Assembly (NCBI GenBank): GCA_949358305.1
Contig: OX442318.1
Span: forward strand, 15,608,517-15,672,516
Length of the DNA stretch: 64,000 nt
Direction of reading: 5' to 3'
From: Strigamia acuminata
Taxonomy: Eukaryota > Arthropoda > Chilopoda > Geophilomorpha > Linotaeniidae
The position numbers and the translations under genes are program-made. The notes beneath the pieces are model-generated. The model ran no database searches. It was not told the DNA's origin and saw only the letters and a list, made by a program, of their open reading frames with translations. Positions 38,933 to 60,123 of this stretch are shown in pieces. Every line of letters starts with the position of its first letter. The stretch's first letter is position 1.

Positions 38933-39145
38933 TGGAATTGGAAATTCCATAAAGCCTAACAAAAGCATTAGGAATAGCATGATACTTCATGCAAAAACAT
39001 AACAAATGCATATAAATGCGGGAAAAAGATAAACAATATCGAATATTGATAAAAATGGGAAAATACATCGAAATAAATGAAATGAGGAGTCGGAATGTGA
39101 TTCTATATCACATCGATATGTATCATTTGGTTTCTTAGACCAACA
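38933..39145 (-). repeat. 5' LTR of E4, 5' part
   Basis: The sense strand starts TGTTGGTCTAAGAAACC at 39145 and resembles the E5 LTR start, including the shared string CGATGTGATATAGAATCACA. It joins the rest of the E4 LTR (25229-24891) across E6. The flanking GTAAT (39146-39150) should be the E4 TSD; its partner is lost because the 3' end of E4 is truncated. Confidence 0.8.
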
Positions 39146-41697
39146 GTAATTTCTAACATCTTTGTAGATTCTTGTCCAGAAGAATCGTGTTCTTATCCGC
39201 TTCCACGTTTTTGCCAATCCCAAGTGAGCTCCTAGTAATCCATCGTGCATTTCATACAATACATCTTTTTGAAGTTGTTTTGGAACTACTAGTAATAAAT
39301 CTTCCATGTTCAGGGAACTGTTAAGTTTTTTCTTCCTGAACAACGTTTTGTTTTGAAGAACAAACTGCTTAAGTGGTCGTCTTCTTTTTCTTGGAAGTTG
39401 CTCTTGGTTTTCTAGCGCTGTTATGAGGTCCAGTAGTTTGGGATCCTTCCTCTGTTCAACAGGGAGGTCCAAGTTTTCTAAGAAAAGCGAAGGTAATTTT
39501 TCTATTTCTTCTTCACTTAATTCTTCCTGGATCCTACTTAAAGCATCGGCATATGTATGTTTCTTGCCGCTTTTATGAAATATTTCAAAATCATACTCAG
39601 CTAGTTGCAGCGCCCACCTGGCTAGACGTCCATTTGGATTTCGGACTCCTCTCAGCCATTGGAGGGCAGAATGGTCGGTGATAATTTGGAATTTCTGTCC
39701 ATACAAGTACGGTCTAAATTTCTCTATTGCAAAAATAATGGCTAACATTTCTCTATCAGTTGCAGTGTAATTCTGTTCAGCTGTGCTCATTAAACGACTT
39801 GCGTACGCGATAACACGCTCTTGGTTGTTAACTTTTTGTTTAAGAATTGCTCCTAAACCATATGCGCTTGCATCAGTTGAAATCATGAAGGGCTGAGCGA
39901 AGTTTGGATGCGCTAACACCGGCACTGTTACTAATGCTGTTCGAAGCGTGTGGAATGCTTTATCATGGGGTGGCCCCCAATCAAACTTTTCATCCTTTTT
40001 GGTTAAATTCACCAGAGGTTTGGAAATGTCCGCAAAACCAGCGATGAACTTCCGGTAATACGAGCATAATCCAAGAAAACCACGTAGTTGTTTAACGTTC
40101 ACAGGAATTGGAAACTTCGCGACTGAATCCAGATTCCTGGGATCCGGTGAAATACCTTCAGCATCAACCACATGTCCGAGATATCGAATGGTGTGTGTCG
40201 CAAACGTACATTTGCTCAGCTTGACTTTGAGATTCGCTGTTCTAAGCTTTTGGAAAACTGCCTCCAAATCGACAAGATGCTGGTCAAAAGTCTTTGAAAA
40301 CACTATCAAATCGTCAAGATATGCAATACATACTTTTCCCAGGAGATTACCAAGTACCTTATTCATCAATTTTTGAAAGGCTGCTGGACTGTTACATAAT
40401 CCCATTCCAAGGACATTAAACTCATAGTGTCCGCTTGAAGTAGTGAACGCTGTTTTCTCACGATCTTGTTCATCTATTTCGACTTGGTGGTATCCCTGAA
40501 TAAGATCCATCATCGAAAAATACTTCGCACCCGCTAGCTGATCTAGGGTGTCATCAATACGCGGTAAGGGATACACCATTTTCTTTGTCACTGCATTCAA
40601 ACGTTTCCAATCTACACAAAATCTCCATTTGCCGTCTCTCTTCTTGATGAGTAGTACTGGTGCACTCCATGGGCTCTCGGATTCTCTAATGACTCCCTGG
40701 TCAAGTAACTTCTTTGTTTCTGCATCCTCGATTTCTTTCTCCTTAATTGATCTTCTATAAGGTTGTAAATGGATTGGAGGAGAATCTCCAGTATCAATTC
40801 GATGTTTAATCGCGTGAGCTCTGCCTAAATCATTGTCAGTTTTCGCAAATCTATCAGAATTTTTCTCTAGCAGTTGTCGCATCAGTTCTTGTTGTGATGG
40901 CGTCATATTATCATTTGCCATGGCCGTGCTAAAGTCAAATTGATCAACTCTATTTTCATCAAGCACGCCAGACTCAATTACATAAAAGGCTTTTGCAATT
41001 GCTGAGTTTTTTCCTAAATAGATTGTCTTTTTAGTTGGATTTGCAACTCGCAGAACTCCTTCACCTTTTCTGAATTTAGTCAATGTTTTGCAACAAATCA
41101 CTCCAAAGCGATCAATTACTCCACTAAGTGGTTCTATGAATAATTCATCATCTACTTTCTTTGCAATTTTTATTGGTACAACACATTCATGTAAAGCTGG
41201 AATTGTTATTGGTTTTAAAACTCGGGCTATGTAATTTAAATCAGTATGATTCTTTGACATTGGGAAAACTTCTTGTTGTTCATCTTTTGGGCCTACAAAG
41301 ATCTTCTGTTGGTCATAGTCGAGTTTACACCTTGCAGATCTTAAGAAATTGTCTCCCAGCAGTAAATGGCGTCCAAATCCATTAACGATTAATACGTCAA
41401 TGGTGTGTTGTTGTTGTTCAACATCAATGGTTATCCTGGTTTTTCCTTCTGGGATTATCAATGAGCCATCCACAACTCTCAATCGAACACCTGGGCAGGG
41501 CTGATATTTGAGCTGCAGAGTTCTCTTCAAATCTTCACTAATGATGTTACGAAAACCTCCAGAATCCAAGACACCAGTGATTTCCATACCATTTAATACT
41601 ACTGGAATTTGCAAAAGTTCATCCATAGCGTGCAACTCAATGATTTCTAATTTCCTCTTTTTGAATTTCTTCTTGTTTTTCCGTCTTTGTGGCCATT
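39146..41697 (-). pseudogene. pol: G1 pol, lacking most of integrase
   Basis: The frame is open upstream of the first Met-like codon and enters from gag by a -1 shift at 41701-41707. It encodes protease (VLDSGGFRNIIS), gypsy RT (WSAPVLLIKKRDGKWRFCVD, YPLPRIDDTLDQLAG, AYLDDLIVFSKTF), RNase H (ISTDASAYGLGAIL, YTATDREMLA, TDHSALQWL, YADALSRIQEEL) and the first half of the integrase zinc-binding region (EMHDGLLGAHLGLAKTW, RIRTRFFW). Homology to G2 ends at RNY, exactly where the E4 LTR begins; the last 50 codons of the open frame are LTR sequence. The integrase core is absent from this window. Confidence 0.88.
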
Positions 41698-42009: not shown

Positions 42010-43275
42010 TGTCACGATCCTGGAAGTTCAAGGGGGTTGTCACTTCGCCTGCCACACCTGGAATGTTTGAAAGTTGTGTTTTTAGTCTTTTGGAATTAAT
42101 TTATGTGTCTTTATACCGTTTCCGGTTCACTTGTGAGAGAGATAGGCGTGCATAAGCAAGATGGCCGCCATAGCACAACTGAACTGGGAGGCAGGATTAA
42201 CTGAAATTAATCATTATTGTTATTTTGATGCTTGTTTCATAGATATTTAGATTTGTACTAACCTTTGCTTGATGTTTTAGTGTGCTGATGTTCATCAGAG
42301 ACGTGGGACGGCAAGAAACAAGCGTTTTTGGGCGTCCTTGGCATTTGGATACACATGAGCGCATTGGGATCGTGTCTGGGAGAGAAAGCGACTGGGAAAC
42401 GTCTTGTTTGGCTTCCTAGCAAAGTCCCTACACTGAGTTGAAGGTGCCCTGTGCTGCTGTCATGCCTTGGTCGACCCTGGAAGTCTATTGGGCTCGTTTC
42501 TGCTCTCATTTACGGCAGTTAGCAACTGCTTGGCCGCCATTTTGGAGAGGAGCGGGTCTCTTTGTGTTTGAGCATTGTTGTAGTGAAAGTTACCTAGAAC
42601 ATAGCAAATTGGTTGGCATTAATTAACTTAATGATTTGGGAGTATTTTAGAGACATTTTAGCTGTACATTTGTTAACTTCACTTAACTTTATATACAAGT
42701 GCAGATATGAGTTGTGATTAAGCTGTACTGCCATTGGTTGTTAAGTTTATCTCTGCTTTGTTAATTGTTAAGTCTATTTAGATTAAGTTTTTGCCTTGTT
42801 TTCATTGCTGTATTTTATCTAAATTTTAGTTATGTTTTAAGAGCAAATGTACATAGGATTTAAGCTATTTTTAGTTAAGTTTCAATTACGCCATTGTTTA
42901 TTGTTACTAGGCGCGCTTGTTGCCAAGCGCACTGTTGTGTAGTGGGTTGCTAAAGAAGCAACTCAGTTGTTATCAGTTGTTAAGTATTAAAACCAGTTGA
43001 TATTTTTCCTCCTTTTTTGGATAATTTATTCCTGGGTTTCTTTTACTTCAATAAACATGATGACTTGTGAGTAGAGAGCTTTGCCTGCTCTCCTCCTCCC
43101 TGGGAGCACGGAATTTCTACCCAGCAGCTAAAGAGGTTTTGCCAATCACTTCATCTAAATGCAGTTAGGCCTAGTTTCATGCAGTCAGGCCTAACCCTTC
43201 TTCAAGTTAGGCTTATGCTCAGAGAGAGGATTTCAACTTGTCTCTTCAACCATTATACAGTCTCGGGCGGTTTCC
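42010..43275 (+). repeat. probable BEL/Pao LTR (B1)
   Basis: This contains CAAGATGGCCGCC (42158-42170), GGCCGCCATTTTGG (42532-42545), a polyadenylation signal AATAAA near 43051 and short repeats of the string AGGCCTA around 43167-43190. A possible primer site starts TGGTGACC at 43282. Both ends are uncertain, because no second full LTR is present to compare. Confidence 0.5.
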
Positions 43276-44077
43276 AGAGTTTGGTGACCAATTCGCCAGT
43301 TTTCCCTGTGAGATCCAAGGTTGTTTGCTACAGGGAGCTGTTTTTTGGTACCGTGATACCAGGATTTCATGCGCGTGTGTACAGCGCGCATGAAAAAGAG
43401 GTCATTCGGACGTTCAGCAAGTGATTCAAGTGGTTTGGTGCGTGCCAGTTGGTTCGTTTGTACGGCTGGTTCCGTGAGCGACCGGCATCAAGTGCGCACG
43501 CCAGAGAGTCACGTGAGAGCGGCCATTGACGTCCTGAGTCTGCCAAGTCAAACACAACGCAATGTGCAAGTTGAACAGCTACAGCCTGAAAGAAGAAGAA
43601 CAGTTTTAGTTTTTAAAGTGTTTTTTTGGTGGGCTGTTTTTTGGGTTTTTTTGATGTGTCCCTTCTGGGGGGAGGGGAAGTGTGCATTTTCGTGTTTAAG
43701 TTAAAGTTTAAGTTTTTCTCCACTATAACTGCTTAGGCAGGGGAGATTTAGATAGCCTAGTAGTTAAAAGAGTCTGCTTGACAGCTTAGAGTTTTTGGGT
43801 GTTGCATCACTCAAATCCTTAGGAATTTAGAGAGTTTAGCAGTTAACAGGAATTAGTCTACTATAGGAATTAGAGACTGGGTGTTGCGCCACTCAGATCT
43901 TTAGTAGCATAGAGTTTACAGTGAGTCTGTCTGTATATCATTCAGATCACTAGCGGTTTAGTTGAGCAGTTAGTGTATTTGGTCATTGTTTGTCCAAATA
44001 TCACCTGTGTTTAGAGTTGTGTGTCTTTGGTTTTTGACTGACTGATTGTCTTCACTTTCTGCCATTCCAGGTTTGAC

Positions 44078-44585
44078 ATGGCTACAGGAGGTGGATCAAG
44101 GTCAGGATCAGGGAGAACAACGCCAACAACGGTTGAGCAACAACCGCCGGAAGAAATGGACGTGTTGTCTGGGAGGTTCACGACTTTGGGGATCTCTTTG
44201 GACGCGCTTTTGAGAAGGTCCTTGACACTAAAAGATACCGGCGAGCTGGAAGCTGTAGAAATGGCTGCAGATGAACAGATGATGAGAATGATAAACGACC
44301 TGAACACGATGCAGCCCAACCTGACAAGAGATCAGTACTTGGCAAATCTAAGGGAAATCGAAGAGTTAGAGACACCGATTTCAGTTCTTAAGCACAGAAC
44401 CCGAATGTCAAAGAAGTTCGTGACGCATTGGTCAGCTAATCCAGCAAATGCTTCAGCGTTGATGACCAGTACGTCCCAGAGTTCGATTTTGAACCAGACC
44501 TTGTCGCAATCGACAAGAAGGCATAATAATGCAAAGCTTCCTAAGTTGGAAATGCGGAAATTCAATGGAGATGTGACGACATTTC
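44078..44585 (+). pseudogene. gag: BEL/Pao gag N-terminus, truncated
   Basis: It starts at an ATG (MATGGGSRSGSGRTTP) at the end of the leader and gives 169 codons: a Gly/Ser/Thr-rich start, a helical region resembling the BEL gag N-terminal coiled coil (about residues 30-130), and KLPKLEMRKFNGDVTTF, the hallmark that in BEL/Pao gags precedes the conserved capsid region. E8 sequence begins immediately after it and brings a stop. The identification rests on this hallmark motif. The other part of this gene is not in the window. Confidence 0.78.
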
Positions 44586-45065
44586 TATAAAGCGATTTCC
44601 TGGCCAAAACATCCGTTAGAAAGGAGTTGACAAGTGTCTAAACAGGTGCGCGACACCGACATGCGTGCGCCATGTTTAATGTGACATAAAAGTGTACACG
44701 CTTCGAGGCTAACAACTGCACTCGAGAAAGATAGGATAAATCATTGTTGGATTTCAATGATTTGTCCTTTACATTATAAAATAAAAGCAATGACATTCAT
44801 AATCGATAACTAAGCAATAATAACAATACAGGACTCGTTCTTTTGAGCAGACGATGTTATCAGCGCATGCTGCTAAATGGAAATGTTCAACCGCGGTACA
44901 GAACCAGCATTAATAAAAATCGAGATCGATTGAACGCGACATCGAGACATTAAATAGCAGCACATTCATTACACATATCCGGAAAGTGTGTAATGTAAAT
45001 ATTCACAAACTATACAATATGGCGACAAACAATCGAACACACAATATTTCCACCACAACTCAATA
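44586..45065 (-). repeat. 3' LTR of E8 (480 bp)
   Basis: The sense strand starts TATTGAGTTGTGG at 45065, after the purine tract AAAGGGGGATA, and ends CGCTTTATA at 44586. It matches 60124-60603 with no difference seen. It has an AACATGGCGCACG stretch similar to the YY1-like sites of other LTRs. Its outer flank is the BEL gag (B1). Confidence 0.87.
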
Positions 45066-45082
45066 TATCCCCCTTTGTTTGG

Positions 45083-47341
45083 TTATTTGCGCCTTACAAA
45101 TAAATGCTCACACAAGGTGTTAAGTCTGGGCTTAGGTAACCATTTGGTCATCATATCGGCGACATTCAGGGCCCCTGGAATATGCTTAATAGCAAACGTT
45201 CCGCGCTCAAACCAGTCCCTGAGGAAATGAAGCTTTACGTCGATATGTTTATTTGCCCTATTCTCTATTCGGTTTTTGGCGTATTGTATCGCGGGCATAC
45301 TGTCCGCGTACACGCATGGGGTGTTCCGATTGATGCTGAACATGATGTCGGCATCGTAAAGCCTCTCTAGCCATATAATCTCCTTTACGCCATCGACCAC
45401 GGCCAGAAATTCACTCTCCATGATCGATAACGCAGTCATTGACTGCTTATGGCAGTTCCACATGATCGGAACGCCACCCAAATAGACTATGTGACCCCCA
45501 AAGCTTCTCCTTTTGTCTGCATCGAGGGCAAACGACGCGTCGGTATACACAGTTAGATTATCATTTCGGCAATTAGAAAGATTAATCATATAATCCGACG
45601 TATTTGCCAGATATCGCAAAATTTGCAATAACATACGAATGTGACGCGTCGAATGTTTCTCATTGTATTGTGAGAGGACAATGACCGAGAACAGGATGTC
45701 TGGCCTTGTCCTGCTCGCCAAGAACAAGAGGCTTCCCACTAAGTTGCGATAGGGGAAAGTGGAATCAACCCGCTCCTTTTCCGTCACGCCCTGAATAATC
45801 GTTCCTGGCGTCCCAGGTACTCTAATCCGAAGGCATGAGTCGACCCCATACAACTTACAAAGTTTTTCTATGTATGCCCTTTGATGGATCCTAACTTGGC
45901 CCCCAGACCTATCAAAGGCTATGCCTAACAAAAGGGTCACGGGACCCAAATCAACCGTGTCAAAGGATTCCCTAATCCATCGAACAACGCATTCCTCGAC
46001 ATAGTCATCCTTGGAGAAGAGAACTATGTCGTCCACGTAAAAGATAAGAATCGCGTCGTTGTCTAACGCATAAACACAGTTAAGACCCAACAAAGGCACA
46101 AATCCCAGTTGGAGTAGACGGTCGTGGAGGGCTTGGTACCACATCCGTCCACTCTGATGTAGTCCATATAATGACTTCAACAGCATCCAACACTTATGTT
46201 GGTTTTCGGCTGTTCTGTAGCCCTTGGGAATCTCCATGAATTGGACCTTATCAAGGTCCCCGTACAAGTACGCGGCCTTGATGTCAAGGTGGACATCTCT
46301 CCAACCTTTCAGTATCACCAAGGTACAGAAAAACACTATAACGAGGACGAAATTGACTACGGGGGAAAATACCTCCGTAAAGTCAATGCCCGGCCTCTGT
46401 TTGAAGCCTTGTGCTACCAAGCGAGCCCGGTAGCGCGCGACTGCACCCGACTGGTCCCTTTTCATTTTATAAATCCATTTTGATCCCAAAAGCAACTCTC
46501 CTTCGGGCTTATCAATTTCTTTATAGACAGTTCGATCGTCGAAGATATCTGTCTCTTCTTTCATCGCCTTTTCCCAGTCCCGTTTATTGGTGTGCCTCAT
46601 TGCCTCCTCGTAGGTATCAGGCTCTACGGCAAAAGGGAGTTCGGGTTCTTCACCCTCTAAGGTTTTGAAGTCAAAAAGATCTGGGTCGTAGTGGTAACCC
46701 TCTGCGTCGCACCATCGCGCAACGTCAGTCCGACTTCTAAGTTTGTCTTCATTGGGCGAGAAATAAACCACATCAATTTTCCCAGCCGTTGCCCCGGCTT
46801 TCCGGACAGACTGGACCCGTCTCCACTTAGTCATATCCAGCGGCAGCGACAAAGGATCTTTGACCTTCTTTCCCTTTTTACCCGAACCACGACGAGCTTG
46901 TATCGTAGGAGGAAGATCAACTTCCTCATCGTCGTCAGGATAAACATTGAAGTAATTCTCACCATCGCCGTTATCCCCCTTCGCCCCACCAATCTCTTCA
47001 ACTGGATTATCCCCAGCACCAGCATCCCCAACCAAGTCACCTTCAACAGTTTCTATCGCAGGCTGTTGTATCGCTTGTTTTACAAGCGGCCTCAATTCAG
47101 GTCTGAAAACAGGCTTTGGGGTTGTGGGTAAAGGAGGCTTCTCCTTCGGAACCGGGGGTTCAACAGGGGGCGGAATAGGAGGTGGTAGTGCCTCTCGCAC
47201 TTCCTCAACAATTTCAGGGATAGGGGCAACGGAATCATCATCATCTCCCTCGGTGTCCGAGGAAGAATCCCCAAAATGTTTGAATTGGCCACCCTGCGGT
47301 TGCTTGATGGGCTGTTGTAGCCGTTTGCCAATCTCATACCA
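45083..47341 (-). pseudogene. E8 linker-RT-RNase H segment
   Basis: The open frame enters from the G2 insertion point and runs 753 codons: an acidic/proline-rich linker (PKEKPPLPTTPKPVF), RT (SKWIYKMKRDQSG, VHLDIKAAYLYGDL, YVDDIVLFS), RNase H (YTDASFALDADKRRS, SIMESEF, NKHIDVKLHFLRDW) and the C-terminus MMTKWLPKPRLNTLCEHLF, with the stop at 45083. Compared with E9 it lacks 12 bp (four codons between ELPFA and VEPDTY, after 46630), which keeps the frame. It has no start of its own; the 5' half is at 58923-56351. Confidence 0.9.
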
Positions 47342-47345
47342 ATAT

Positions 47346-47847
47346 TGTTACGTGGCTAAATGGGGATTGATTTAGTCCTACGTGACATGAAGTTAATCAA
47401 GAATGACACAGGGTTTTATATGTAAAATGCCTTTTGGCTTTATTATTCAAAGTCGGACATTTACTAATGTAAATGTTCGGTCAACAGCTCTTATTACATT
47501 TGTTCATTTATTAACCTAAAATATAAATCACTCATTCAAATCAAATAAATAACTAAATAAGGATGATGCTGTTGTCAATTCAATTCAGTTTAGAAAACCT
47601 AGTCCTGCCTGACCGTCAACCGGCTGGCAGTAGTAGGTGAAGGTAACAGGTTGAGACTCAAAAGAGATCTGAGCTCTCTGGCTTAATCAACTCACTAAGT
47701 AAACTCCTATTCCCCCTATCAACTAAGTTGAACGGTCTGTGCATCTTATTAGGTGCACAGCGCCGTCTAGTGAGAATTCATTGTATTAAATGCCTAAACA
47801 GAGCGAGCAGAGCCAGCCGATACACGGTACGGCTCTACCGCGTAACA
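47346..47847 (-). repeat. 3' LTR of G2 (502 bp)
   Basis: Terminal repeat TGTTAC/GTAACA. The sense 5' end (47847) follows a polypurine tract with a run of eight G (reverse of 47848-47856). It matches 55845-56346 with no difference seen. Confidence 0.94.
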
Positions 47848-48256
47848 GCCCCCCCCTTTAATTTTTTCGGTCTCTCGAAAAACAATGAATTGTTCTAACT
47901 AACGCATCTCCTTTCACATTAAAAAATTCAAATCATAAACTCAATTTTACAATTTTGAGAATCTCTTTTCATCATCCTTATTTTTACAAAAATATCATAT
48001 AACTCACTTTTCAATGTTTATAAATGTCATAGTCACTTTTTATTACACTTTTACATTGGAAATAATATTCAAAGTTTAAAATTAAATAAAATTAACACTT
48101 TTCATCAATGATAACACTTTTTGGTTTTTTCTTGTTTTATATTACTTTTTTTCAGTTTTCAATTTTCTATAAAATAAAAAAACACACACACAAAAAAAAA
48201 TGTTCAAAGTTCGTGTTGATTTTACACTTATTCACTTAAAGAAGTTAAAGTTCACT
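47848..48256 (-). other. G2 region between ORF3 and 3' LTR
   Basis: AT-rich 409 bp with the polypurine tract at the LTR end, a short CA-rich run (48181-48193) and A/T homopolymers. No ORF of note is present. It is presumably the 3' untranslated part. Confidence 0.6.
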
Positions 48257-49630
48257 TCACTCTCCTCCTTCCGCTTGATCCTTCTTATCCTCTTCTTTGA
48301 TCAACTCGAATGGGAGAATTTCACGATTTGCAATCTCATACACAAATCGTAAGCGTAACTCACACGGCTCCCCAAACTGCATTAAGTCCCGGTCTTCAAC
48401 GTATCTTGTAACGAAGTAGAGTATGGTTGGGCCACAGCTGTCATTATCCAATTGGTGCATACGTGGCGGGTCCCAACGTATGAATTTGTTTGGAAACTTT
48501 ACTCCTGCATCCATCAACGAGTATCTTAAAGATTCCCACTTTGGATATGTGCGCTCTATTGGTCCGCTTGGGTCATAAAGCACGTATTGGGTTGGCTTTT
48601 TCCGCCAATCCACTATGAAAAGCTGCCAATGCTCTTCAATAGGAACTGGAAACACCCAAATCTTCTTTTGAGCACTTGGAAGTCTCTTCATTAGCCAATA
48701 GATCGCTTCCTTTCGTTTAGCTGGGTCCACCATTTTGAAGACCCACTCAGATTGAATTGGTGCCAATATGGGATATCGCTCTTCTAACAGTTGGAGGTAA
48801 TGATCAACGACGCTGTCATACGTCCAGCTCTGTCGTCCCGGCGTTAGGTCGCCTAATGCTGCCATCTGATAGTTCATGACTTTAATCGGCGGACAACCTA
48901 CGGCGTCGAATGCTAAGTCATATTTTGGCGCATTACTATAGTCTAATGCAAGTCCGAGAGCCTGGACCTGTCGTGCAGCGTCCAACTCCACACGGTATAC
49001 CCGTATAGGAGTAGGAAATACTACACTAGGGTCCTGGAAGGACTCTCTTCTCGCTAAGGCGATGGCTTTTAAAATATTTTTTCTTATCTTCGCCTCCTGG
49101 ATCAGCAAAGCATTCGCCCCTGTTCTCCACAACTGGTAGTCGGGCAATCCCATCACTCCTTTTAATTTCCTGGCTCTAATGGCGTTGACCATATTCCGGT
49201 GCTCCATTCGCAAATCATTTAATCGGCGTTTGTTTCGATCAACGGTGTGACGCATTTCTTCTTCCCGGATTCTTTTCGATTGCTCGTCAAACACTTTCTT
49301 CTTTTGTGCTTTCTTATCTCGTTTCAATTGTCGATTCTTACGACGACGACGCAATAAGCCTTCTTCATCCTTTGTTAATGGTCCTGCATATTTCTTTTTG
49401 TCTTCCTCCGCCTTTTGTTTTCCTTCTGTAAACGGGCGTGGGCAGTTAACCAATTCGTCCAAAGTTTTACTTGTGCTCGGCTTATTTGCTAAATAAATTT
49501 CCAAGTCATCGCCTTTCTTAAGTTGACGTTCCAAAAGATCGCCCACTTGCATCGAGCAAACCGAATCCGCATCGCTGTCACTATCACTACGCACATCCAT
49601 CCGATCAAATTTGCTTGCCATTTCGTCCAT
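48257..49630 (-). CDS. G2 ORF3: Ulp1/C48-like cysteine protease
   Basis: A 457-aa protein. Residues 1-90 are acidic and polar, 90-150 form a very basic Lys/Arg/Glu helical stretch that may be a coiled coil or nuclear-targeting segment, 150-310 are unrecognised, and 325-430 resemble Ulp1/SENP (C48) proteases. The expected catalytic residues are all visible: His 334 (EEHWQLFIVDW), Asp 353 (VLYDPSGP), Gln 393 and Cys 399 (HQLDNDSCGP). The spacing (19, 40, 6) is close to yeast Ulp1. The family cleaves SUMO or related isopeptide bonds; the substrate here is unknown. There is no signal peptide or membrane segment, so it is not an envelope. It starts 424 bp downstream of pol and would need a spliced or internal mRNA; a T-rich tract ending in TTAG lies just upstream of the ATG. 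A second Met is codon 4. Confidence 0.82.
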   Translation of the reverse strand: MDEMASKFDRMDVRSDSDSDADSVCSMQVGDLLERQLKKGDDLEIYLANKPSTSKTLDELVNCPRPFTEGKQKAEEDKKKYAGPLTKDEEGLLRRRRKNRQLKRDKKAQKKKVFDEQSKRIREEEMRHTVDRNKRRLNDLRMEHRNMVNAIRARKLKGVMGLPDYQLWRTGANALLIQEAKIRKNILKAIALARRESFQDPSVVFPTPIRVYRVELDAARQVQALGLALDYSNAPKYDLAFDAVGCPPIKVMNYQMAALGDLTPGRQSWTYDSVVDHYLQLLEERYPILAPIQSEWVFKMVDPAKRKEAIYWLMKRLPSAQKKIWVFPVPIEEHWQLFIVDWRKKPTQYVLYDPSGPIERTYPKWESLRYSLMDAGVKFPNKFIRWDPPRMHQLDNDSCGPTILYFVTRYVEDRDLMQFGEPCELRLRFVYEIANREILPFELIKEEDKKDQAEGGE

Positions 49631-50054
49631 TCGGATTCTAATATATTATTTGAAAAGAAAATAAAATAAATTACTTCATTAATTCAAAATTTTCACAAAA
49701 ATTTTTCAATTTCCATTCGTTATTTCATTTAAAATTTCATGTTGCACTAATTTACACTAAATTTAACAATTTTTTAACTAATTAGTCACTTGATAATGTA
49801 TGCACACACTAAAATTTCATTTTGAAGTTTTAACACAATTATTTAAGCCTAAATTTCCATTTCGCGATGTTATTCGTTTCGTTTTTAAGCTATTTGCTCG
49901 CCAAATTCGTTCTAAATTTCACTCTCTTCACTTACGGAATCACACACAAATCAACTCAGCTGCTGTTATTAATGCTTTAGGTTTCTTTGAGTCACACAGT
50001 AAACCCGGTTCGTCTCAGAAAACCTTAACACAATCCACTGTAGTCACGACGAGC
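49631..50054 (-). other. G2 spacer between pol and ORF3
   Basis: AT-rich 424 bp without a conserved ORF. Just before the ORF3 start (49641-49665 reversed) there is a pyrimidine-rich TTTTCTTTTC followed by TTAG, a candidate 3' splice site for a subgenomic mRNA. Nothing else is recognisable. Confidence 0.5.
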
Positions 50055-53000
50055 CTATTTGCGAAGGCGACGTGACCGGAAACTCTCGATTTCAGGCGGC
50101 GACGCGTCATCGACTGCGTCAGCGACACCTGTCGGCGGTTTTCGCAATTGATTTTCTTTGTTTTTCCGTTCGTCTTCGTTTTGCCATCTTTCCATAATTT
50201 CTTTCGGTCCATAGAGCGCTTTTAATCGCTCTGTTTCGCTTGGAATTGGGAAATTTGACACTTTTGTTGTATTTTCTTCAGGTTCAAAGAGTGTTTTTAA
50301 CGAAATTTGATCGTCATCGCTAATAAATCGTTCTTTAGCGATCGGAATTGGCGAAATTGACGTGTTTTCTTCAATTTCTTGTTGTTTTTCACTTTGTGTT
50401 GCAGTTTCATCAGCAAATGTGACTTTTTTAGCTGTCAATTCTTCTAATATCTCCGCTGGAATTTCTTCTCTGGGTTTATACGGTTTTAATCGTTCAATAT
50501 TAACAATATCTGTTTTCTTTCCATTTGAACTTCTAATTTCGTAGTCATTTGGCGCGGTTCTTCTTACTATTTCGTATGGGCCTGAGAATTGTGGCAGGAG
50601 TTTTTCACTTAACCCAACTTTTCTATTGGGTGTTTTGAGATATACTAATTCTCCTGGGTCAAATTCCACATGAACTCGGCCTTGATCGAATCTTTTTCTG
50701 CTTTTTTCTCCTTGCCATTCCAACCTTTCATTTGCTATTTTCCTAGCTTCTCTGATGAATTTTGAGGTTCGCAAGGTAAATTCTTTTTGAGGTAAGTTGA
50801 GGTTTACGTCCACGTTCAAATCAACTTCATATCCTTTCAAAAGATAATAAGGTGTATATCCTGTTGTCTCGTGCACACCGGTATTATACGAGAAAAGCAA
50901 AAATGGCAAAAAATCATCCCAGTCCCTCTGGTCCTTATCAACATAAATCTGCAACATTTTTGCAAACGTCGCATTGAATCTTTCTGTGAGGCCATTGGTC
51001 CTTGGATGGTACCCTGAAGTGGTTTTATGTAGGGCTTTAAACATATTTGATACTTCTTCCACCATTTTGTTTCTGTATTCTGTGCCTCTATCGCTCAGGA
51101 TTTCTCTCGGACTGCCTTCCTTCAACATTAACTCATAAAGCAGGGTTCTAGCTGCTTCCAACGCTGTTGATGCTGGAGCTGCTCTAGCAATCACTGTCCG
51201 CGACAAATAATCTGTCATTACGAAAACATACTTGTTGCCCTTGTCGGAGGTCGGAAAACTTCCCAGTGTATCGATTCCAATCCTCTCGAAAGGCTTAGAT
51301 ATCGTAGACCACGGCTGCATTAAACCTTTTGGCGCTGTCGTCATTGATTTCGAGCTCGCGCAATGTGGACAAGAAAGTACGTAATTTCTAACGTCTTTAT
51401 ATATCCGGGGCCAGAAGAATCTTGTTCTCATTCTCTTCCATGTTTTGTTTAGGCCCAAGTGAGCACCCGTCAGTCCATCATGCATTTCTTCAAGAACGGC
51501 CGTTTTCAAATGCTGTGGAACGTATAACAGATTTACTTCCGTGTCTAGGGAATTCAGAGAATTTTTCTTCCTAAACAACACGTTATCGAGAAGGACGAAC
51601 TGCTTTAGAGGACGTCTTCTCTTCTTTGGAAGTTGCTCTACTTGATTCATTGCGGTGATCAATTCCAGTAGCTTCTTGTCCTTACGCTGCTCAGCAGGAA
51701 GGTCGAGCTGTTCGAGTAAAAGTGAGGGAACTATTTTGTTTTCTTCCTCGCTTAAATCTTCTGGAATCCTACTCAAGGCGTCGGCATCTTTGTGCGCTTT
51801 TCCGCTCTTGTAGATCACATCGAAATCAAAGTCTACTAGCTGTAGGCTCCATCTAGCCAGTCTGCCATTGGGGTTTTTGACTGATTTTAGCCATTGAAGT
51901 GCCGAATGGTCTGTAATTATCTGGAACTTCTTACCATACAGATAAGGTCGGTACTTTTCAATTCCAAACAGAATAGCCAGACATTCCCTTTCCGTGGCTG
52001 TGTAATTCTGTTCTGCTTGGCTGAGAAGTCTGCTGGCATAAGCTATCACATGTTCTTGTTTGTTTATCTTCTGTTTCAACACTGCTCCAAGACCATATGC
52101 GCTCGCGTCTGTCGATACCATGAAGGGTTCTTCAAAATTAGGGTGCGCAAGCACTGGCACGGTGATAAGGGCGGTCCTCAATGTTTTGAAGGCCTTGTCA
52201 TGAGGTGGGCCCCAATCAAATTTCTCGTCCTTCTTCGTCAAATTGACTAAGGGCTTGGATATGTCCGCAAAACTTGGAATGAACTTCCTGTAATACGAAC
52301 AGAGCCCTATGAATCCTCGAAGAAGTTTGAGGTTAGTAGGAACTGGAAACTTCGCGACGGATTCCAAGTTCCTAGGGTCTGGTGATATACCCTCAGAGTC
52401 CACGACATGTCCCAAATACTTAATGGTGTTTGTCCCAAATGTGCACTTGCTCAACTTCACCTTTAAGTTAGATTGTCTAAGCTTGTCGAAAACGTTGTCT
52501 AGATCTTTCAAATGCTGATCGAATGTTTTAGAGAAAATGATAAGGTCATCAATGTACGCTATACAAACTTTGCCTAGGAGGTTGCCTAAAACTTTATTCA
52601 TTAACTTTTGAAAAGCCGCTGGACTATTGCATAATCCCATTCCTAGGACGTTAAACTCAAAATGTCCGCTTGAAGTGGTAAATGCTGTTTTTTCGCGATC
52701 TTGTTCATCTATTTCGACTTGATAATATCCTTGAATAAGATCCATCATGGAGAAGAATTGTGCACCTGCCAGCTGATCTAAAGTGTCATCTATTCTTGGC
52801 AATGGGTACACCATTTTCTTTGTTATCGCATTCAAACGTCTCCAGTCGACACAAAATCTCCACTTACCATCTCTTTTCTTTATTAGCAATACAGGCGCGC
52901 TCCAGGGACTTTCTGATTCCCTTATCACTCCCATATCAAGCAATTTCTTTGTTTCCTCTGCTTCGACTTCTTTTTCCTTCATAGAACGACGATACGGTTG

Positions 53001-53971
53001 CAAATGTATTGGTTCATGGTCTCCAGTATCGATTTTATGCTTATACACTTGAACTCTTCCCAAATCCTTGTCAGAAACAGCAAATCTGTCTTGATTCTTT
53101 TGAAGAAGTTGTCGCATTTGCTCTTGTTGGTCTTTATTCATTTTGTCTTTTGCTATTGAGGAGTCAAAGTCAAAACAGTGTACCTGTTTTTCGTCAAACA
53201 CCCCAACATCAACCACATAATAAGCTTTTGCGATTGCTGACTTCTCCTTCAGAAAGACTGTCTTCTTGGTTGGGTTAGCCACTCGAATGATGCCTTTTCC
53301 GTTCTTGAAATCTGTTAAAGTTTTACAACCTATCACAGCAAATCTATCAGTGACATTATGTAATGGTTGTACAAACATGTCCAATGTTATTGCTTTATTC
53401 AAATAGATGGGAACAATGCATTCGTGCATTGGTGGAATAGTGATGTTTTTCATTACCCTCGCAACATAATTCTGATCAACAAAAGTTTTATTCATTGGAA
53501 ATGACACTTCCTTTCCACTAGTTCGGCCCACAAAGATTTTTTGTTTATCGTAGTCTAATACGCACTTCGCGAACAGCATGAATGGGTCACTTAGCAGTAG
53601 TTCATAATGAAATCCTTTAACAATCAGGACCTCGATCCTGTATGTTAATTCACCAATTGTAATGTTCATCTTGGTTTTTCCTATTGGAGTCACAAGTTCT
53701 CCGCTTACCCCTTGTAATCGTATATTTGGGCTTGGCGGGTACTTCAACTGTAAAGCTTCAGCAAGCTCTTCGCTGATAACGTTGCGTTTTCCTCCAGTGT
53801 CCATAACTGCCTTGACTTCCATGTTGTTCACTATTACTGGAATTTCCAATAGAGATTCTGAAATGTTCATTTCGACTACGACTATCTTTTCTTTTCTACT
53901 TTTTCTTTTCTTCTTTGGATGGCAACATCTTCCTTGTTGATGGTGACATCTTCTTTGTGGCCGACCCACTA
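50055..53971 (-). CDS. pol: G2 pol polyprotein (Ty3/gypsy), intact
   Basis: About 1,304 codons in the -1 frame relative to gag, without a needed ATG of its own. It begins with a basic stretch, then protease (VMDTGGKRNVIS, Asp near 57), RT (WSAPVLLIKKRDGKWRFCVD, FSMMDLIQGYYQVEID, AYIDDLIIFSKTF near 472), RNase H (VSTDASAYGLGAVL near 616, TDHSALQWL, DADALSRIPEDL), integrase HHCC (EMHDGLTGAHLG, CPHCASSKS), catalytic core (GIDTLGSFP, LSDRGTEYRNK, RTNGLTERFN; about 895-990), and a GPY/F module (PQFSGPYEIVRR near 1129). There is a C-terminal tail of about 120 residues. The order PR-RT-RH-IN is diagnostic of Ty3/gypsy. All catalytic motifs are present. Confidence 0.95.
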
Positions 53972-53978
53972 GTTTTCC
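53969..53978 (-). other. gag-pol frameshift region of G2
   Basis: In sense GGAAAAC is followed directly by the gag stop TAG; the same place in G1 has the canonical GGGAAAC. The pol frame is open through the overlap in -1. Slippage on GAA AAC is plausible but the heptamer is not canonical, so stop readthrough or another mechanism cannot be excluded. Confidence 0.5.
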
Positions 53979-55300
53979 TCTTCTTGTTGACCTTGTTGTG
54001 GGTTCTGCTTAGGATTAGGGTTAGTTTTACCACCCCCTTGTGTCCTTTTCTTCTTAAACCACCTTCTGTTGTTTGGGTTCCCTCTATTTTCTTGAGATTG
54101 TTGCTCCTGTGGCGCTGATGTGTTATGTTCACAACCATAACGATGCCAACATCCACATGAACGCGTTGTTGTCGGACTGCTATTTGACCGCTGTCTACCT
54201 CTGTTGTATCTACCTCTAAAGTTCTGTCCGCGCTGCAATGCTGGAATATACCACTCGCCTTGTATGAATAATGGAACCAATTGTTGTGGCTCTACTGACT
54301 CACTTACGAGCTTTTGCTGTTTTAATTTGATATTTTCAGCTAATAACTCGGCGTAGCTTACTGGGGATCCCCCTGTTCCAGACAGTATACCTGTTGTCGT
54401 AGGGTTCACCTTTTCATCTACAACTTTTTTGAACATTGTGAGCAGTAGATCCGCTGGTTCTTCTGTTTTGTGACTTTCATACAATTTAAGTCTCTGTTCC
54501 ATTTCTTCTAACGTCGATGGAAATACCGTTATCATCATCTTCTGCATTGCAGGCTTCAAACCTTGGTAAACATAATTTATTTTCTGAGTTTCAGTCATTT
54601 CTGGTAGAATAAACGCACATTCGGCCAAGACTTTCTTCATGAAGGCATCTGCTGTACCCTCTTTGTGTTTCATGAAGTGGAGAGTATTGTAAACATTTTC
54701 TTGGCTTCTTCTAAATTTTTTCTCGATCTGTGGTTTCCAATCCGTCCATTTCCATGTCGGATTCTTCTTTAGTTGTTCCACAAACCATGCCAATCCATCA
54801 GTCTTTAAGGCTAATGCTAGATGTTTTACTCTCTCATCATCTGTTCCTATTGTAGCTTCATATGCCACAAGCCATTGGTCGATGTTGCCCTTTTCTGTAT
54901 CATAAGTGACAACAGGTCGCTTCTGCACTACCAAACTCTTCAGTAAGTCGGTCAATACGTCCGTTGGAGTCTGTGATGATGTCATTTTTGGAAAATTTGG
55001 TTCAATTGGTGTTGGAACTGGTTTAGTCTTTACTGGTGTAAATGTCTTTATTATTTCTTCTAAACCTTTTTGTGGAATTAATTTTATTAACGGAGTAGCG
55101 AAATCCAACTTCTGTAGGATTGATTGAGGTTGAGATCGGACTTCTTTATCTTCCTTCTGAGGTTCGGTGTCAGATTCGGATTTAGCGTTTTTACTTTTCC
55201 TAGTGGTGATATTCTTCAAATTTGGCCCAGGTAACTGCAGATCCTGCAGATCCTGAAGGTTATCCAAGTTGAATTGTGACAATTTCACTAGCTTATCCAC
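53969..55300 (-). CDS. gag: G2 gag (Ty3/gypsy), intact
   Basis: A 443-aa protein. The N-terminus (MDKLVKLSQFNLDNLQ) is followed by a charged Pro-rich segment, then a capsid-like helical domain at about residues 110-290 (DQWLVAYEATIG, ALKTDGLAWFVEQL, IEKKFRRSQENVYNTLHFMKH resembling gypsy retrotransposon gag). The C-terminal quarter is rich in Arg, Gly, Asn and Gln and presumably binds RNA; a Cys/His cluster (CGCWHRYGCEH) replaces the usual CCHC knuckle. It ends at a TAG where pol takes over in the -1 frame. It would form the virus-like particle core. Confidence 0.9.
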   Translation of the reverse strand: MDKLVKLSQFNLDNLQDLQDLQLPGPNLKNITTRKSKNAKSESDTEPQKEDKEVRSQPQSILQKLDFATPLIKLIPQKGLEEIIKTFTPVKTKPVPTPIEPNFPKMTSSQTPTDVLTDLLKSLVVQKRPVVTYDTEKGNIDQWLVAYEATIGTDDERVKHLALALKTDGLAWFVEQLKKNPTWKWTDWKPQIEKKFRRSQENVYNTLHFMKHKEGTADAFMKKVLAECAFILPEMTETQKINYVYQGLKPAMQKMMITVFPSTLEEMEQRLKLYESHKTEEPADLLLTMFKKVVDEKVNPTTTGILSGTGGSPVSYAELLAENIKLKQQKLVSESVEPQQLVPLFIQGEWYIPALQRGQNFRGRYNRGRQRSNSSPTTTRSCGCWHRYGCEHNTSAPQEQQSQENRGNPNNRRWFKKKRTQGGGKTNPNPKQNPQQGQQEEEN

Positions 55301-55844
55301 ACTGAAGCCTTATATTGCACTTTTTTTATTCACTTCACTAGCACTAATCTCTCTCTGAACACTGAATACACTAACACGAATTCATTACCTGAAAACTTAA
55401 AGTGTTATTAGCATATAATACATAAATATTACACTCAAAATTATAAAGAAAATAATCCATCAATAACATTTCAAAACAATTTTTTCAATTCCTATAAATT
55501 CACAAAATTTCCTGTAAATAAATATCAAAATTAGTATTTATACACTATATATTTTATTTATTCTAAATATAACAATTGTAAATCAATTTATTAATCCCTA
55601 ATCAACAATTAAACTCTATTTTCATTTCCAAAATGCAAATTATTTCACACAATGACATTAAATATTCAAGCTGTGACTTCACTTGTTTTTACCAACTCTG
55701 AGTCATTCAAGATAATTGCTATAAAATCAGCAATTTTCACTAATTATTTCTAGATTTTTATTAAATTATTTTGGCAATTTTAATCCAATTTTAATGGGAT
55801 TTTAAATCTAAACGGGCTACAATCGAGACCGCATCTCCACCAGT
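55301..55844 (-). other. leader and primer-binding site of G2
   Basis: Very AT-rich, about 540 bp. Two bases from the 5' LTR lies a candidate primer site, TGGTGGAGATGCGGTCTCGA in sense (55842-55823), which starts TGG as expected for complementarity to a tRNA 3' CCA. I could not name the tRNA. No ORF is supported. Confidence 0.6.
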
Positions 55845-56346
55845 TGTTACGTGGCTAAATGGGGATTGATTTAGTCCTACGTGACATGAAGTTAATCAAG
55901 AATGACACAGGGTTTTATATGTAAAATGCCTTTTGGCTTTATTATTCAAAGTCGGACATTTACTAATGTAAATGTTCGGTCAACAGCTCTTATTACATTT
56001 GTTCATTTATTAACCTAAAATATAAATCACTCATTCAAATCAAATAAATAACTAAATAAGGATGATGCTGTTGTCAATTCAATTCAGTTTAGAAAACCTA
56101 GTCCTGCCTGACCGTCAACCGGCTGGCAGTAGTAGGTGAAGGTAACAGGTTGAGACTCAAAAGAGATCTGAGCTCTCTGGCTTAATCAACTCACTAAGTA
56201 AACTCCTATTCCCCCTATCAACTAAGTTGAACGGTCTGTGCATCTTATTAGGTGCACAGCGCCGTCTAGTGAGAATTCATTGTATTAAATGCCTAAACAG
56301 AGCGAGCAGAGCCAGCCGATACACGGTACGGCTCTACCGCGTAACA
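55845..56346 (-). repeat. 5' LTR of G2 (502 bp)
   Basis: It is the same length and, by eye, the same sequence as 47346-47847, ending next to the TSD ATAT (56347-56350). Identity of the pair indicates a very recent insertion. Confidence 0.94.
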
Positions 56347-56350
56347 ATAT

Positions 56351-58923
56351 GAGTCTTCGAAAATTCGGACATGTTTGGACGCAAAAACTTGATTCCGTAC
56401 AGGATCCCAAACCCTGTAGCCCCTAGTTGATATTGCGTATCCAATGAGTGCTCCCGCCCAAGCCCTTCCTTCCAGTTTGCCCTTTCTGACCTGGGACGGG
56501 ATATGTACAAATGTCTTCGACCCAATACACTTGATGTGTCGCAAAGACAATTTCTTGCCGAAAAACACGGTATAGGGCACTTTTCCTCCAAGCCCTTCAT
56601 GGGGGAATCGGTTCTTTAAGTAAACTATGGTCGTCGCTAATTCAGCCCAAATGGGATAGGGGAAATCATTTTCCAACATTAAAGCTCTGACGCCACCGAC
56701 AATGGTACGGTTTGCACGTTCTGCAACAGAATTCATTTCCGGGCTATATGTATTCGTACGAATACATTTCAAACCAATTTTGGATGTATAATCATCCCAA
56801 TTCCGCGAAATAAATTCTCCTCCATTATCAGTTTTAATGCATTTCACTTTCCGTGATGTCGTTCTTTCGACTTCCGTCAACCAACGTTTAAAATGGCCCA
56901 AAACTTCCCCTTTGGTCTTCATCGTTATGATCCACATATAACGTGAATAATCATCAACCAATATAAAGTAAAAATTAGCCCCACCCAAGGAAGTAGCTTG
57001 TGATGCCCCCCAAACATCCATGTGCACTAAATCTAATACTCCCTTAGTGGAAATGGTAATTATCGGGGGAAAACTCGCCCTAGTGCTCTTAGCACGGGCA
57101 CATGCGTCACAAGTGGATAATTCTTTGTTAGACAAATTGATCCCAAAAACGTCCTCGGATTCGGTTAATTTAATAATGCCTTTAGCATTATGGTGGCCCA
57201 TTCTGGAATGCCACGTGTCCATACTCTGGGATGTTTCTTTCTTTCTCATTTTGATCCCAGTATCCCCGCTTTTGTTAACTTTCGCAGTCGCATTAGCTTC
57301 GGGAACAATGGCAGGAGGTGTCTGAACCTCATTCACTGTTTTCTGTAAATTAATCGCCGCAGGCGCATTCGCTTTGGTTGGCTCGCTTACTTGCGTACTC
57401 AAATTAGATGCGGATTTTCCCATATCCGGCTTACATAAACTTTTTAGTAAAACTGACTTAAAATCTAAAATGGTTAGTAGCGGTTGTACAAATTTTTCAT
57501 CCTTCACGGATGATTTGATTAAATCGAGGACAGCAGCTGTATCCTGTTGCGCAGTTAATGCAGCTGTGTTTACAGAATTAACCTCGACCCGGCAGTTGAC
57601 TTTGTACAGCCTGTCGCTAGTCCGAACTGCCGAAATCAAAGGTTCCTCGATTTTATCTTTGAAAATACTCATTTTCCCATCTTTGACAATTGTGCACAAC
57701 CCAGCCTCATCGGTGCGCCCGAGCGAAATAAGGTTTTTCCGAAAATTCGGTGCGAAGAATACATTCGTCAAAGTTATTTTCCTCGTTCTTTGTCCATAAA
57801 GCGAAGTGAGAACGATGTTGCCCACACCTTCAATCTTCGATTTTCCTTCTCCTTGTAGAACGCTGAAGTTAGACAACGGTTTGAAGTTTGAAAACCAATT
57901 CCGGTTGAAGGAAAAGTGATCGGTCGCTCCCGTGTCCACGTACCACTGTGAATCGTAGTTTCCGTGCGACACAAGAGATAAGGGCACTGTGGACTTCTCT
58001 TCCGACACCGCAGAATACAAAGTGTAGGGCTCATCTGTATAGGGGTCCAGTTGTGTGAGATTTGCTCTCTGTGGACCCCCTCTGCCTCGTCCTTTGCCAC
58101 GGGTGCCTCCACGATTCAATTGGGCTGGCGAGCCAGCGCTGGCGGGGAAAGTCCCTTGCTGTTTCGGCGGCGATGGGCACTCCCTGGCGAAGTGTCCCGA
58201 CCCACCGCAAGTAAAACATGTTCCACGCGAAGTTCCGGGGGAATTTGGGGTTTTTCCACGAGGTTTCCATTTCCCTTTAGTATAGAAAGCGGTAGTATTG
58301 TCTGCCAATCCAGGTGGGACGCCAAATTCATTGGTCTGTTCATAAAGGCGATTGTACTCGCCAAGTAAACGTTCTTTAACGTTTTTCGCTGTGAATTCCG
58401 TATCCGACCAGTGATACGCGGTCTGTTTCACAGCCTCGTATTGTGGGGGCAGAAGATCTAAATATTGGAATGCCTGGAATTCATCGGTGACCTCAATTTT
58501 AACGTCCTTCAGTTCGACGATTTTGCGGTCGACCCGCCCGGTGAAAACTAGCATTTCCTCATTATCTCGCAGTTTCATGTTGAGGAATTCACGTCGCAAC
58601 CGAGCACGACGTGCCCTCGTCGTCGGTTGATAAGCGTCCTTTAGGGCTTCCCAAACTTTCGCAGCGGTGGGGCAGGCAACAGCTATCACTTGCTGCGGCT
58701 CGGCGCAACTCATGCAGATAGTGGACATTGCCTTGTCCTCTCGAGCGTTAAACTCTCGCTTCTCTTTTGCAGTGGCTGTTGCAGCCAGTGGTGGCTCAGA
58801 GCCACTAACATGTCCCCAAACGCCGTTGTATTTGAGCAATAACTGGACCTGCACGGACCAGGTGGCATAGTTCGTGCCATCGAGCTTTTTAATATCCTTG
58901 TAATCGTCGTGCTTTGAAGCCAT
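56351..58923 (-). pseudogene. E8 gag-protease-integrase segment
   Basis: The likely start is the ATG at 58923 (MASKHDDYKDI), matching E6; an in-frame ATG at 58947 is probably leader. About 857 codons: gag (KLDGTNYATWSV), CCHC knuckle CFTCGGSGHFAREC, protease YVDTGATDHF, integrase zinc finger (HSRMGHHNAKG, CDACARAKS), DDE core (HMDVWGAS, TDNGGEFIS, SPEMNSVAERANR) and the integrase C-terminal part (IGSKTFVHIPSQVRKGK). G2 interrupts it after KHVRIFEDS. The open frame runs on into the G2 LTR to 56293. The remaining domains are at 47341-45083, in frame if one TSD copy is kept. Confidence 0.9.
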
Positions 58924-60123
58924 CGCGACGACACCAGGAAAGTGCACAATAATAATTGGTTATGCACGGAGAGAACACAATTTCGGAATTTATTCCGCAC
59001 ACACACTTCACAGGAGCACTTAATCACACAATGCACAATTGTCTCTAGTCCCAAAAACCAAAAAGGAAGGCGAAAATACAGTTTCAACCCGGGGAATCTC
59101 AATAAGTGAGATTGGAAAACCTTGACTGGCAATCCACCAACTCTTCCGTCCGACCTCCTGGGGTCGCGGGATGGTTGGGGGCCCTGGATAAGCCCAGCCA
59201 AGAATACAGTGCTACGTGCCCGACTGGACGTAGGGTAGCACCGAATCTAACAAGGGACCAACAACAAAAACTTAAAACTAACAAAGTTTCACGACAATAT
59301 CTAATTAAATACACTTTTTCGTTGTTAAGTTGGGCGAATTGCGGGATCCGATCGTCGCAATCGCTTCCTCGTAGCGGTGAACGTCGGGTTGACGTTATTG
59401 GTGCACGGAACTGGGGCCGACGTGCTACCACTTGCACACTTCCGTGCAAAAGTGGGGAAAAATAATCCAAAATCGTCGTTGCGCACGTCCGCGCCTTCGT
59501 GTAGCACACCGGGGTGCAAGCCACGGCTTTTCCGCTCCAAAATTAGTCGTGTACGTAGGCTTATACGTACACAGACACTCCAAATTGATTCCACCGTCGA
59601 CAACGATGAAAATCCAAACAAAAATGGCCGCTGGTGAGGATTTGTTCTTCACCGGCGATCCCACGATGATTTTCGTCCGTTTCGTGATGAAAAATCGTCG
59701 TTTCGGCGATTGAAGGCGCCGTTTCGCTGAGATACGCGTTGTCTCGTTGAAAATTGACGTTGTCTTGAAGAAACAACGTCGTGCGGGCGTGAATCGACCC
59801 GAAACACGCTCTGGTCGGCTGGCTACGCTGCCTGGGCGATCCAAGATGGCCGCCGCACAAAAATTTTCAAAGTCGACGATTTTGGTGTTTATTTCACACC
59901 GAAAAATTGCAAAAACACACAGCTTACGCTTGTAAATGTCCGAAATAATGTCCGCACACCCTGTCAATCCGTTTCAAGCGCGTTGGCGAGGTGAAACCCG
60001 TCCTGGTCGATCGAGTCGCGTTTGCAGCGATGTCGAGCGACGTCTGGGCTATGTTCGGTCTCCAAAAATGCCGAAAATCCTTTACAAACTGGTTGGGCCG
60101 TCGTCAACCATCCTCTGCTACCA
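58924..60123 (-). other. leader and primer-binding site of E8
   Basis: The primer site (60123-60106) has an 18-nt match to the tRNA-iMet 3' end. The leader includes CCAAGATGGCCGCC (59841-59854), a hairpin with loop CCCCGG (59504-59517), a GTGCTAC/GTAGCAC outer stem with an AGTC loop (59241-59209), the core TCCCGCGACCCCAGGAGG (59171-59154) and the hairpin AATCTCA/TGAGATT with loop CTTAT (59113-59095). Short ORFs are present but none is shared with the E1 or E6 leaders. Confidence 0.65.

Follow-up and report, generated by a model that had tools for sequence, protein, structure and literature searches.

In the available portions of the literature, the retroelements closest to the one analysed here are NeSL and Utopia, nematode non-LTR elements that likewise encode an Ulp1-like cysteine protease (PMC4640811). 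Among other mobile elements, Ginger1 (Hydra and others) combines a gypsy-type integrase with an Ulp1 or OTU domain (PMC2836005), the plant MULE/Vandal elements maintain an Ulp1-domain gene, KIU (Kaonashi), that has been linked to silencing escape (PMC13317346), and the CryptonF and CryptonS elements of oomycetes contain an extra C48 peptidase (PMC3212892). With regard to LTR elements, the bdelloid rotifer elements Vesta, Juno, and TelKA carry varied captured enzymatic ORF3s, including a GDSL esterase and a DEDDy exonuclease; the text on these rotifer ORF3s nowhere uses the words Ulp, C48, or peptidase (PMC5408684). No recognisable report of an Ulp1/C48 ORF in an LTR retrotransposon was found in the literature searched (mostly titles and the beginnings of abstracts, outside Repbase, preprints, and most subscription papers), and one paper treats SENP1 and gypsy separately but, in the portion available, never jointly (PMC6413925). 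The list of precedents in the first-pass annotation of this locus stands in part: it named plant MULE-type DNA transposons, but NeSL and Utopia, the closest retroelement precedents, were missing.

The window (the whole stretch of 64,000 nucleotides analysed here, to which all positions refer) contains a structurally intact Ty3/gypsy element, G2, on the minus strand at 47346–56346. Its 5' LTR (55845–56346, minus strand) and 3' LTR (47346–47847, minus strand; TGTTAC...GTAACA) are both 502 bp with TG...CA ends and are 100% identical, and a target site duplication, ATAT, is read in the left (47342–47345) and right (56347–56350) flanks. Joining the flanks with one ATAT kept restores an uninterrupted Copia frame across the site, which indicates that the element is a clean insertion in an older Copia element. 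Two nucleotides past the 5' LTR lies a putative primer binding site, TGGTGGAGATGCGG (55829–55842, minus strand), that begins with TGG (no tRNA matched), and a purine-rich tract that we presume to be the polypurine tract adjoins the 3' LTR (47848–47866, minus strand). A 446-aa open gag frame (53969–55309, minus strand; start codon uncertain), with a Ty3 capsid match below its Pfam cut-off, overlaps pol in a different frame. pol (50055–54008, minus strand) is a 1317-aa open frame plus stop with Pfam domains in the Ty3/gypsy order PR-RT-RNaseH-integrase, and its named database relatives are of the K02A2.6-like or Ty3-I type. No Rfam match and no tRNA were found in the window.

Elsewhere, the window (1–46000 and 56351–64000) contains several nested Copia-like elements, and two segments (44586–46683 and 42266–44034) recur at 60124–62233 and 62232–64000 with their order swapped. 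A 170-aa ORF at 44078–44590 (plus strand) stops where the Copia repeat begins and presumably resembles the start of a BEL/Pao gag. A truncated gypsy pol, G1, at 38987–41635 groups by RT with a copy of family E (support 0.897; families are defined below); its 3' part is missing in the window, where a Copia LTR lies next to it, and family E carries ORF3 elsewhere.

Downstream of the G2 pol, at 48257–49630 on the minus strand, lies a third frame, ORF3, of 457 aa. Such a length is unlikely by chance, given that open runs in all six frames did not exceed 293 aa in 300 simulations (first-order Markov, ORF3's own composition). The reads of 23 ORF3s from this genome start with MD or ME followed by x-M in 20 cases (two of the other three are cut by read ends), and this recurrence favours initiation at that ATG. 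ORF3 is separated from pol by a 424-bp gap (49631–50054, minus strand) in which a T-rich stretch and an AG 7 nt before the ATG are suggestive of a possible splice acceptor. AG sites are common around the ORF3 start, and a similar acceptor site is present in B copies but absent from D and E copies.

Several comparisons identify the C-terminal part of ORF3 as a C48 (Ulp1/SENP-type) domain. Searched against solved structures with phmmer, ORF3 matched SENP1 at 1.7e-4 (residues 265–439) and the C48 domain alone matched it at 5.2e-5, while the reversed ORF3 protein retrieved no SENP (best E 0.049). A profile built from 13 ORF3s of the same genome matched SENP1 at 1.3e-10 over positions 253–441, and SENP, Ulp1, or XopD made up 17 of the 19 distinct chains among its matches listed at E ≤ 10. 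By this profile the catalytic domain covers approximately residues 253–441 (48308–48874, minus strand). The His, Asp, Gln, and Cys residues of ORF3 are in register with SENP1, with the order and spacing of Ulp1. The predicted catalytic residues are His334 (48629–48631), which is followed by Trp335, Asp353 (48572–48574), and Cys399 (48434–48436, within the motif DSCGP); Gln393 lies at 48452–48454 (all minus strand). From general knowledge of SENP1, we take these four residues to align with its catalytic residues, and Gln393 to be the oxyanion-hole position of Ulp1. H334, W335, D353, Q393, D397, S398, C399, G400, and P401 are invariant in all 23 aligned ORF3s, which belong to seven families and include several near-identical copies. 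The catalytic domain can likewise be aligned with SENP2, SENP5, and yeast Ulp1, although identity to these cellular genes, as to SENP1, is low. The first-pass annotation is thus borne out on the intact element, on the position and length of ORF3 and its residues H334, D353, Q393, and C399, and on the C48 assignment.

The family assignment is nonetheless one of distant relationship. A Pfam scan of the full-length window ORF3 gave no C48 match; its domain scored 13.4 bits against PF02902, under the 20.7 cut-off (E 0.069), and the same model matched 12 of the 13 profile members at E ≤ 1 (best 8.6e-4), with two other Pfam families listed for one member each. Because its domain scores below the cut-off, ORF3 is called C48-type here in the sense of a predicted divergent relative. 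Membership of the poxvirus I7 family, C57, was rejected, since C57 (E 0.2) was not the best profile match but second to C48, and it was absent from the Pfam families listed for the 13 aligned ORF3s. The N-terminal half of ORF3 had no Pfam match, and the sole match of ORF3 in NCBIfam was far under its cut-off. Two single-sequence structure predictions gave no confident domain (mean pLDDT 44.6 and 41.4); the only stretch with a block pLDDT of 74–93 in the single-sequence model was a charged helical one with basic clusters (K/R runs) at approximately residues 81–140 (49211–49390, minus strand). ORF3 is therefore best described, judging from its sequence, as a charged, partly helical N-terminal half followed by a C48 (Ulp1/SENP-type) domain with a predicted complete catalytic set.

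The place of ORF3 after pol is that of an envelope gene, and the "env position" of the first-pass annotation is correct in this positional sense; nothing env-like was found in the protein itself. An envelope-like or cell-entry protein is difficult to reconcile with the C48 homology, with a maximum 19-residue Kyte-Doolittle mean of 0.72 (no strongly hydrophobic segment), and with a single N-glycosylation sequon. We rejected this reading on the hydropathy and the C48 profile match, and its probability appears negligible.

The genome (237.5 Mb, 157 contigs) contains at least 94 ORF3 matches, a lower bound given that 93 of 511 candidates were scored. Among the matches listed, 45 were at ≥90% identity, 46 at 33–46%, and three were pieces between these classes; 79 of the 94 had no stop in the aligned stretch. 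Beyond the window copy, we sampled ORF3 at 25 places, five of them as long stretches and 20 as short ones, and 23 ORF3s including the window copy were alignable, with L057, L076, and L077 left out for broken or short frames and with shortened reads from L068 and L069 (read ends), L072 (usual Met absent), L073, and L075. The 23 sequences fall into seven families, A, B, C1, C2, C3, D, and E, with 30–73% identity between families and rows that can be almost identical inside one family.

In the copies read, a Ty3/gypsy clade has ORF3 as its third gene, invariably located after pol and before the 3' LTR. The best 30 of the 94 matches (L011–L040, the window copy being L011), all of the G2 family (family A) and with 28 distinct flanks, were without exception preceded by the pol end and followed by a 3' LTR of ≥490 bp (30 of 30). 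Upstream of ORF3 in the five long stretches (two B copies, D, E, and one degraded A-like copy) were pol pieces 50–90% identical to the G2 pol. The B copy L054 has an LTR pair of 505 bp (99.6% identical) with GTAT on both sides and an interrupted pol, the other B copy, L053, shows an upstream rearrangement, and the pol of the E copy contains a stop. In C1 and C2, ORF3 comes shortly after a long open frame of pol, and no RT was found in the 4.35 kb read for C3 (L080). Altogether, pol was found upstream of ORF3 in six of the seven open families, and both LTRs in two.

The bases following the 3' LTR in L011–L040 were ATAT in 28 and GTAT in two of the 30 copies (this side only), which suggests a target-site preference for (A/G)TAT. 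Two pairs of these copies, L012 (G000:C6:15547065-15551435) with the window copy and L022 with L023, share their flanks at distances of ~108 and 114 kb on one contig, and represent either segmental duplications or assembly doubling.

To evaluate the constraint on ORF3, we compared copies between and within families. Among 18 Nei-Gojobori pairs, ten had a dS of at most 0.60 and gave dN/dS values of 0.056–0.151; another, at dS 1.94, gave 0.126, and the remaining seven were saturated. L038, 3 nt longer, was left out of the within-family count that accompanied these pairs. Within family A (30 copies, which are the best-ranked ones including the window's own, by a ranking that favours intact copies), the nonsynonymous/synonymous ratio of distinct variants versus the window copy was 0.110 for ORF3 and 0.154 for the pol end, with no stop variants in ORF3 and two in pol. 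Per site, nonsynonymous variants in ORF3 amounted to 0.022, compared with 0.098–0.109 in the flanking noncoding DNA. ORF3 is under strong purifying selection, about as strict as at the pol end. ORF3 is thus almost certainly a selected C48-type protease, and because it has been kept intact by selection in several families, it probably serves the element.

These results leave very little probability to the reading of ORF3 as a passenger, that is, a captured fragment of a host gene without function. Its catalytic set is unbroken in 23 of 23 ORF3s of seven families and most genomic matches are free of stops, and we rejected it because it is contradicted by the dN/dS values. The many copies found mostly refute the one-off passenger that the first-pass annotation had considered, and its proposed dN/dS comparison points the same way; still, some related copies lack ORF3, and such derivatives with open pol in A, B, and C1 are what speaks for a passenger.

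Derivatives of this kind were recognised from the pol side. In a genome search with RT (106 of 3971 candidates scored), ORF3 lay ≤4.5 kb downstream in at least 39 of 54 places at ≥95% identity and in at least 13 of 52 places at 88–90%, the remainder not all being losses. Among the places with no listed ORF3, 54 in number, we read four (L082–L085), and all have open RT frames of 1310–1360 aa. Only about the last 44 ORF3 residues are left in L082 and L085 (C1-like), the last 23 in L084 (A), and none in L083 (B); L083 and L084 keep the 3' noncoding DNA and the LTR. The deletion junctions recur in the genome: the B junction was spanned fully by six of 41 matches on five contigs, the A junction by four of 40 on three contigs, and the C1 junction by eight of 26 (nine more covered it almost completely), spread over eight contigs. 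Families A, B, and C1 therefore contain recurrent derivatives in which pol is open and ORF3 is deleted. Some ORF3-deleted places on contig C9 may be segmental duplicates. With junctions on several contigs, multiplication of elements without their own ORF3 appears likely, and if such lineages multiply, ORF3 would not be required in cis.

In family B, the flanking sides of ORF3 were found ~350 bp apart instead of ~1.5 kb at four places (C12:9607013-9607529, C9:836152-836662, C1:3336596-3337110, and C1:59967872-59968380), which suggests another ORF3 deletion.

The derivatives also bear on what kind of protease ORF3 could be. Adenain is the maturation protease of adenoviruses, and proteases of families C57 and C63 play such a part in large DNA viruses. 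Both families are named in the available portion of PMC10318531. By analogy, ORF3 could be a particle or maturation protease that cuts gag, pol, or itself, which would agree with a gene kept beside gag and pol and with the weak second match to C57. Against this, pol already has an aspartic protease; the pattern [LIVMFTYAR]-x-Gly-Gly occurs once in the window gag and is absent from one B gag, one D gag, and the window pol; and recurrent ORF3-deleted derivatives are incompatible with a maturation protease that is required, unless ORF3 is supplied in trans. The processing of its own gag by ORF3, as put forward in the first-pass annotation, is disfavoured for the first two of these reasons, and taking all three together we rejected a gag protease; a maturation role in the wider sense is unlikely.

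ORF3 and pol have unlike histories. When a D copy was compared with an E copy, DNA identity in 200-bp windows was mostly 84–94% in pol (one 3.85-kb match at 89%) and 60–68% in ORF3, and returned to 86% over 338 bp past ORF3. Silent divergence (pS) between these copies was 0.29–0.36 in four pol regions and 0.83 in ORF3; between a C1 and a C2 copy it was 0.34–0.42 in five pol regions and 0.77 in ORF3. Silent sites of ORF3 were thus saturated, and those of pol were not, in both close family pairs tested (one copy per family), whereas more distant pairs were uninformative, ORF3 and pol both being near saturation. In trees, D and E group together for ORF3 and RT alike, and family A groups with D and E by ORF3 (0.986) but with B by RT (0.639). 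Such a gap in silent divergence along one element implies that ORF3 and pol differ in the age of their common ancestry. The simplest explanations are that related pol backbones have traded ORF3 cassettes or that pol was homogenised recently, and of these an exchange of cassettes seems to us the more likely.

What such a protease would act on can be approached from its relatives. The SENPs are the nearest solved relatives and an invariant Trp stands beside the predicted catalytic His, so removal of a SUMO-like tag would be the likeliest chemistry. C48 enzymes are also able to act on ubiquitin or NEDD8 (PMC10318531, in the portion available). Strict selection, fast divergence between families, apparent swapping, and loss beside complete copies together point to a trans-acting, host-directed factor. 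We propose that the ORF3 protein would strip host proteins of a ubiquitin-like modifier, SUMO being the likeliest, and would act in trans, for instance on pathways that silence or restrict the element by way of SUMO, with deleted copies profiting from protein supplied by complete elements. We judge the chance to be even that ORF3 is such a host-directed enzyme, deconjugating SUMO or a tag like it in trans. The lineages with open pol and without ORF3 count against host-directed action, since ORF3 would be dispensable in some rounds of replication.

Silencing, whose evasion the first-pass annotation had suggested as one possible function, is a plausible target in that SUMO promotes small-RNA silencing in an animal, C. 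elegans (PMC8131105 and PMC8131101, available portions). In plants, Vandal elements carrying KIU escape silencing and their VANC is described as a gene with an Ulp1 domain, whose own function is stated as unknown in the available text (PMC13317346). Deconjugation need not favour an element, considering that the Ulp1 tethered to yeast nuclear pores restricts transcription of Ty1 (PMC8585004, available portion). A more specific and tentative version, which we consider rather doubtful, is that a trans-acting deSUMOylase disables SUMO-dependent germ-line silencing, and that ORF3 is an exchanged "public good" exploited by ORF3-deleted cheater lineages; exchange of cassettes between pol backbones would then track changing host targets. 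If true, ORF3 would be to a retroelement what a silencing suppressor is to a virus.

Alternatively, ORF3 could be a nuclear protein that targets factors of integration or DNA repair rather than silencing. Such a role was proposed for the Ulp1 and OTU domains by the authors of the Ginger paper (PMC2836005, available portion), and the basic clusters of ORF3 could be nuclear signals. ORF3-deleted copies on several contigs speak against it, as integration without an own ORF3 occurs, and we regard this alternative as somewhat unlikely.

Searches of sequence collections recovered relatives of pol and no further relatives of ORF3. In the protein database, no homolog at E ≤ 1 was found with ORF3 among 7997 scored candidates or with its C48 part among 99; these searches relied on exact shared words and a single ORF3 query, and do not imply that ORF3 is absent elsewhere. 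A pol search of the same database scored 7991 candidates and gave 844 relatives at E ≤ 1e-20, of which the 120 listed were 30–52% identical; the named ones include a pseudoscorpion, a spider, ticks, and Daphnia. No relative was found in IMG/VR, whether scanned with ORF3, with pol, or with an alignment of either, or in genome contigs scanned with pol alone. With the pol alignment, which took in 10 of the 120 listed proteins, genome contigs gave ten distant gypsy-like loci, several of which end soon after pol and are thus of little information; in Pfam, no C48 match was found for three frames located later in L001 and L007 (the plus strand was examined at nine of the ten loci, L009 being left out).

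The same genome harbors other mobile-looking C48 genes, at six places with 1075-aa frames (L046–L051) and at L043. L046 has a 745-aa frame with a C48 core and, by eye, what we take to be zinc motifs (SWIM-like and PHD-like) such as MULE transposons have. A genome search with PF02902 gave 29 matches, and the gypsy ORF3s were not among them by coordinate comparison. Aligning the ORF3 alignment with a host C48 transposon-like protein in HHalign gave a probability of 0.5 of 100 (E 0.11), which leaves kinship unsupported, with the His-Trp and Cys-Gly positions lining up.

When compared with the known systems, the window element is distinct in its architecture. In the sources available, the protease of NeSL and Utopia is an N-terminal domain of the RT protein in elements without LTRs, whereas ORF3 is a separate gene after a gypsy pol, with LTRs present. 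Ginger1 is a cut-and-paste element with terminal inverted repeats and Ulp1 at the transposase C-terminus, unlike the window element with its LTRs, RT, and separate ORF3; MULE/Vandal elements are plant DNA transposons and Cryptons are tyrosine-recombinase elements, both likewise unlike a gypsy element. To our knowledge, neither Ginger1 nor MULE/Vandal elements have an RT, and the latter have no LTR. What seems new here is that a known protease domain was captured by a gypsy clade as a separate, conserved, and apparently exchangeable gene. A separate selected protease gene in a multi-copy LTR family, a young insertion with identical LTRs, and natural ORF3-minus derivatives in one genome make the question of its role testable, and the uptake of Ulp1-type domains by several unrelated mobile elements suggests a shared advantage.
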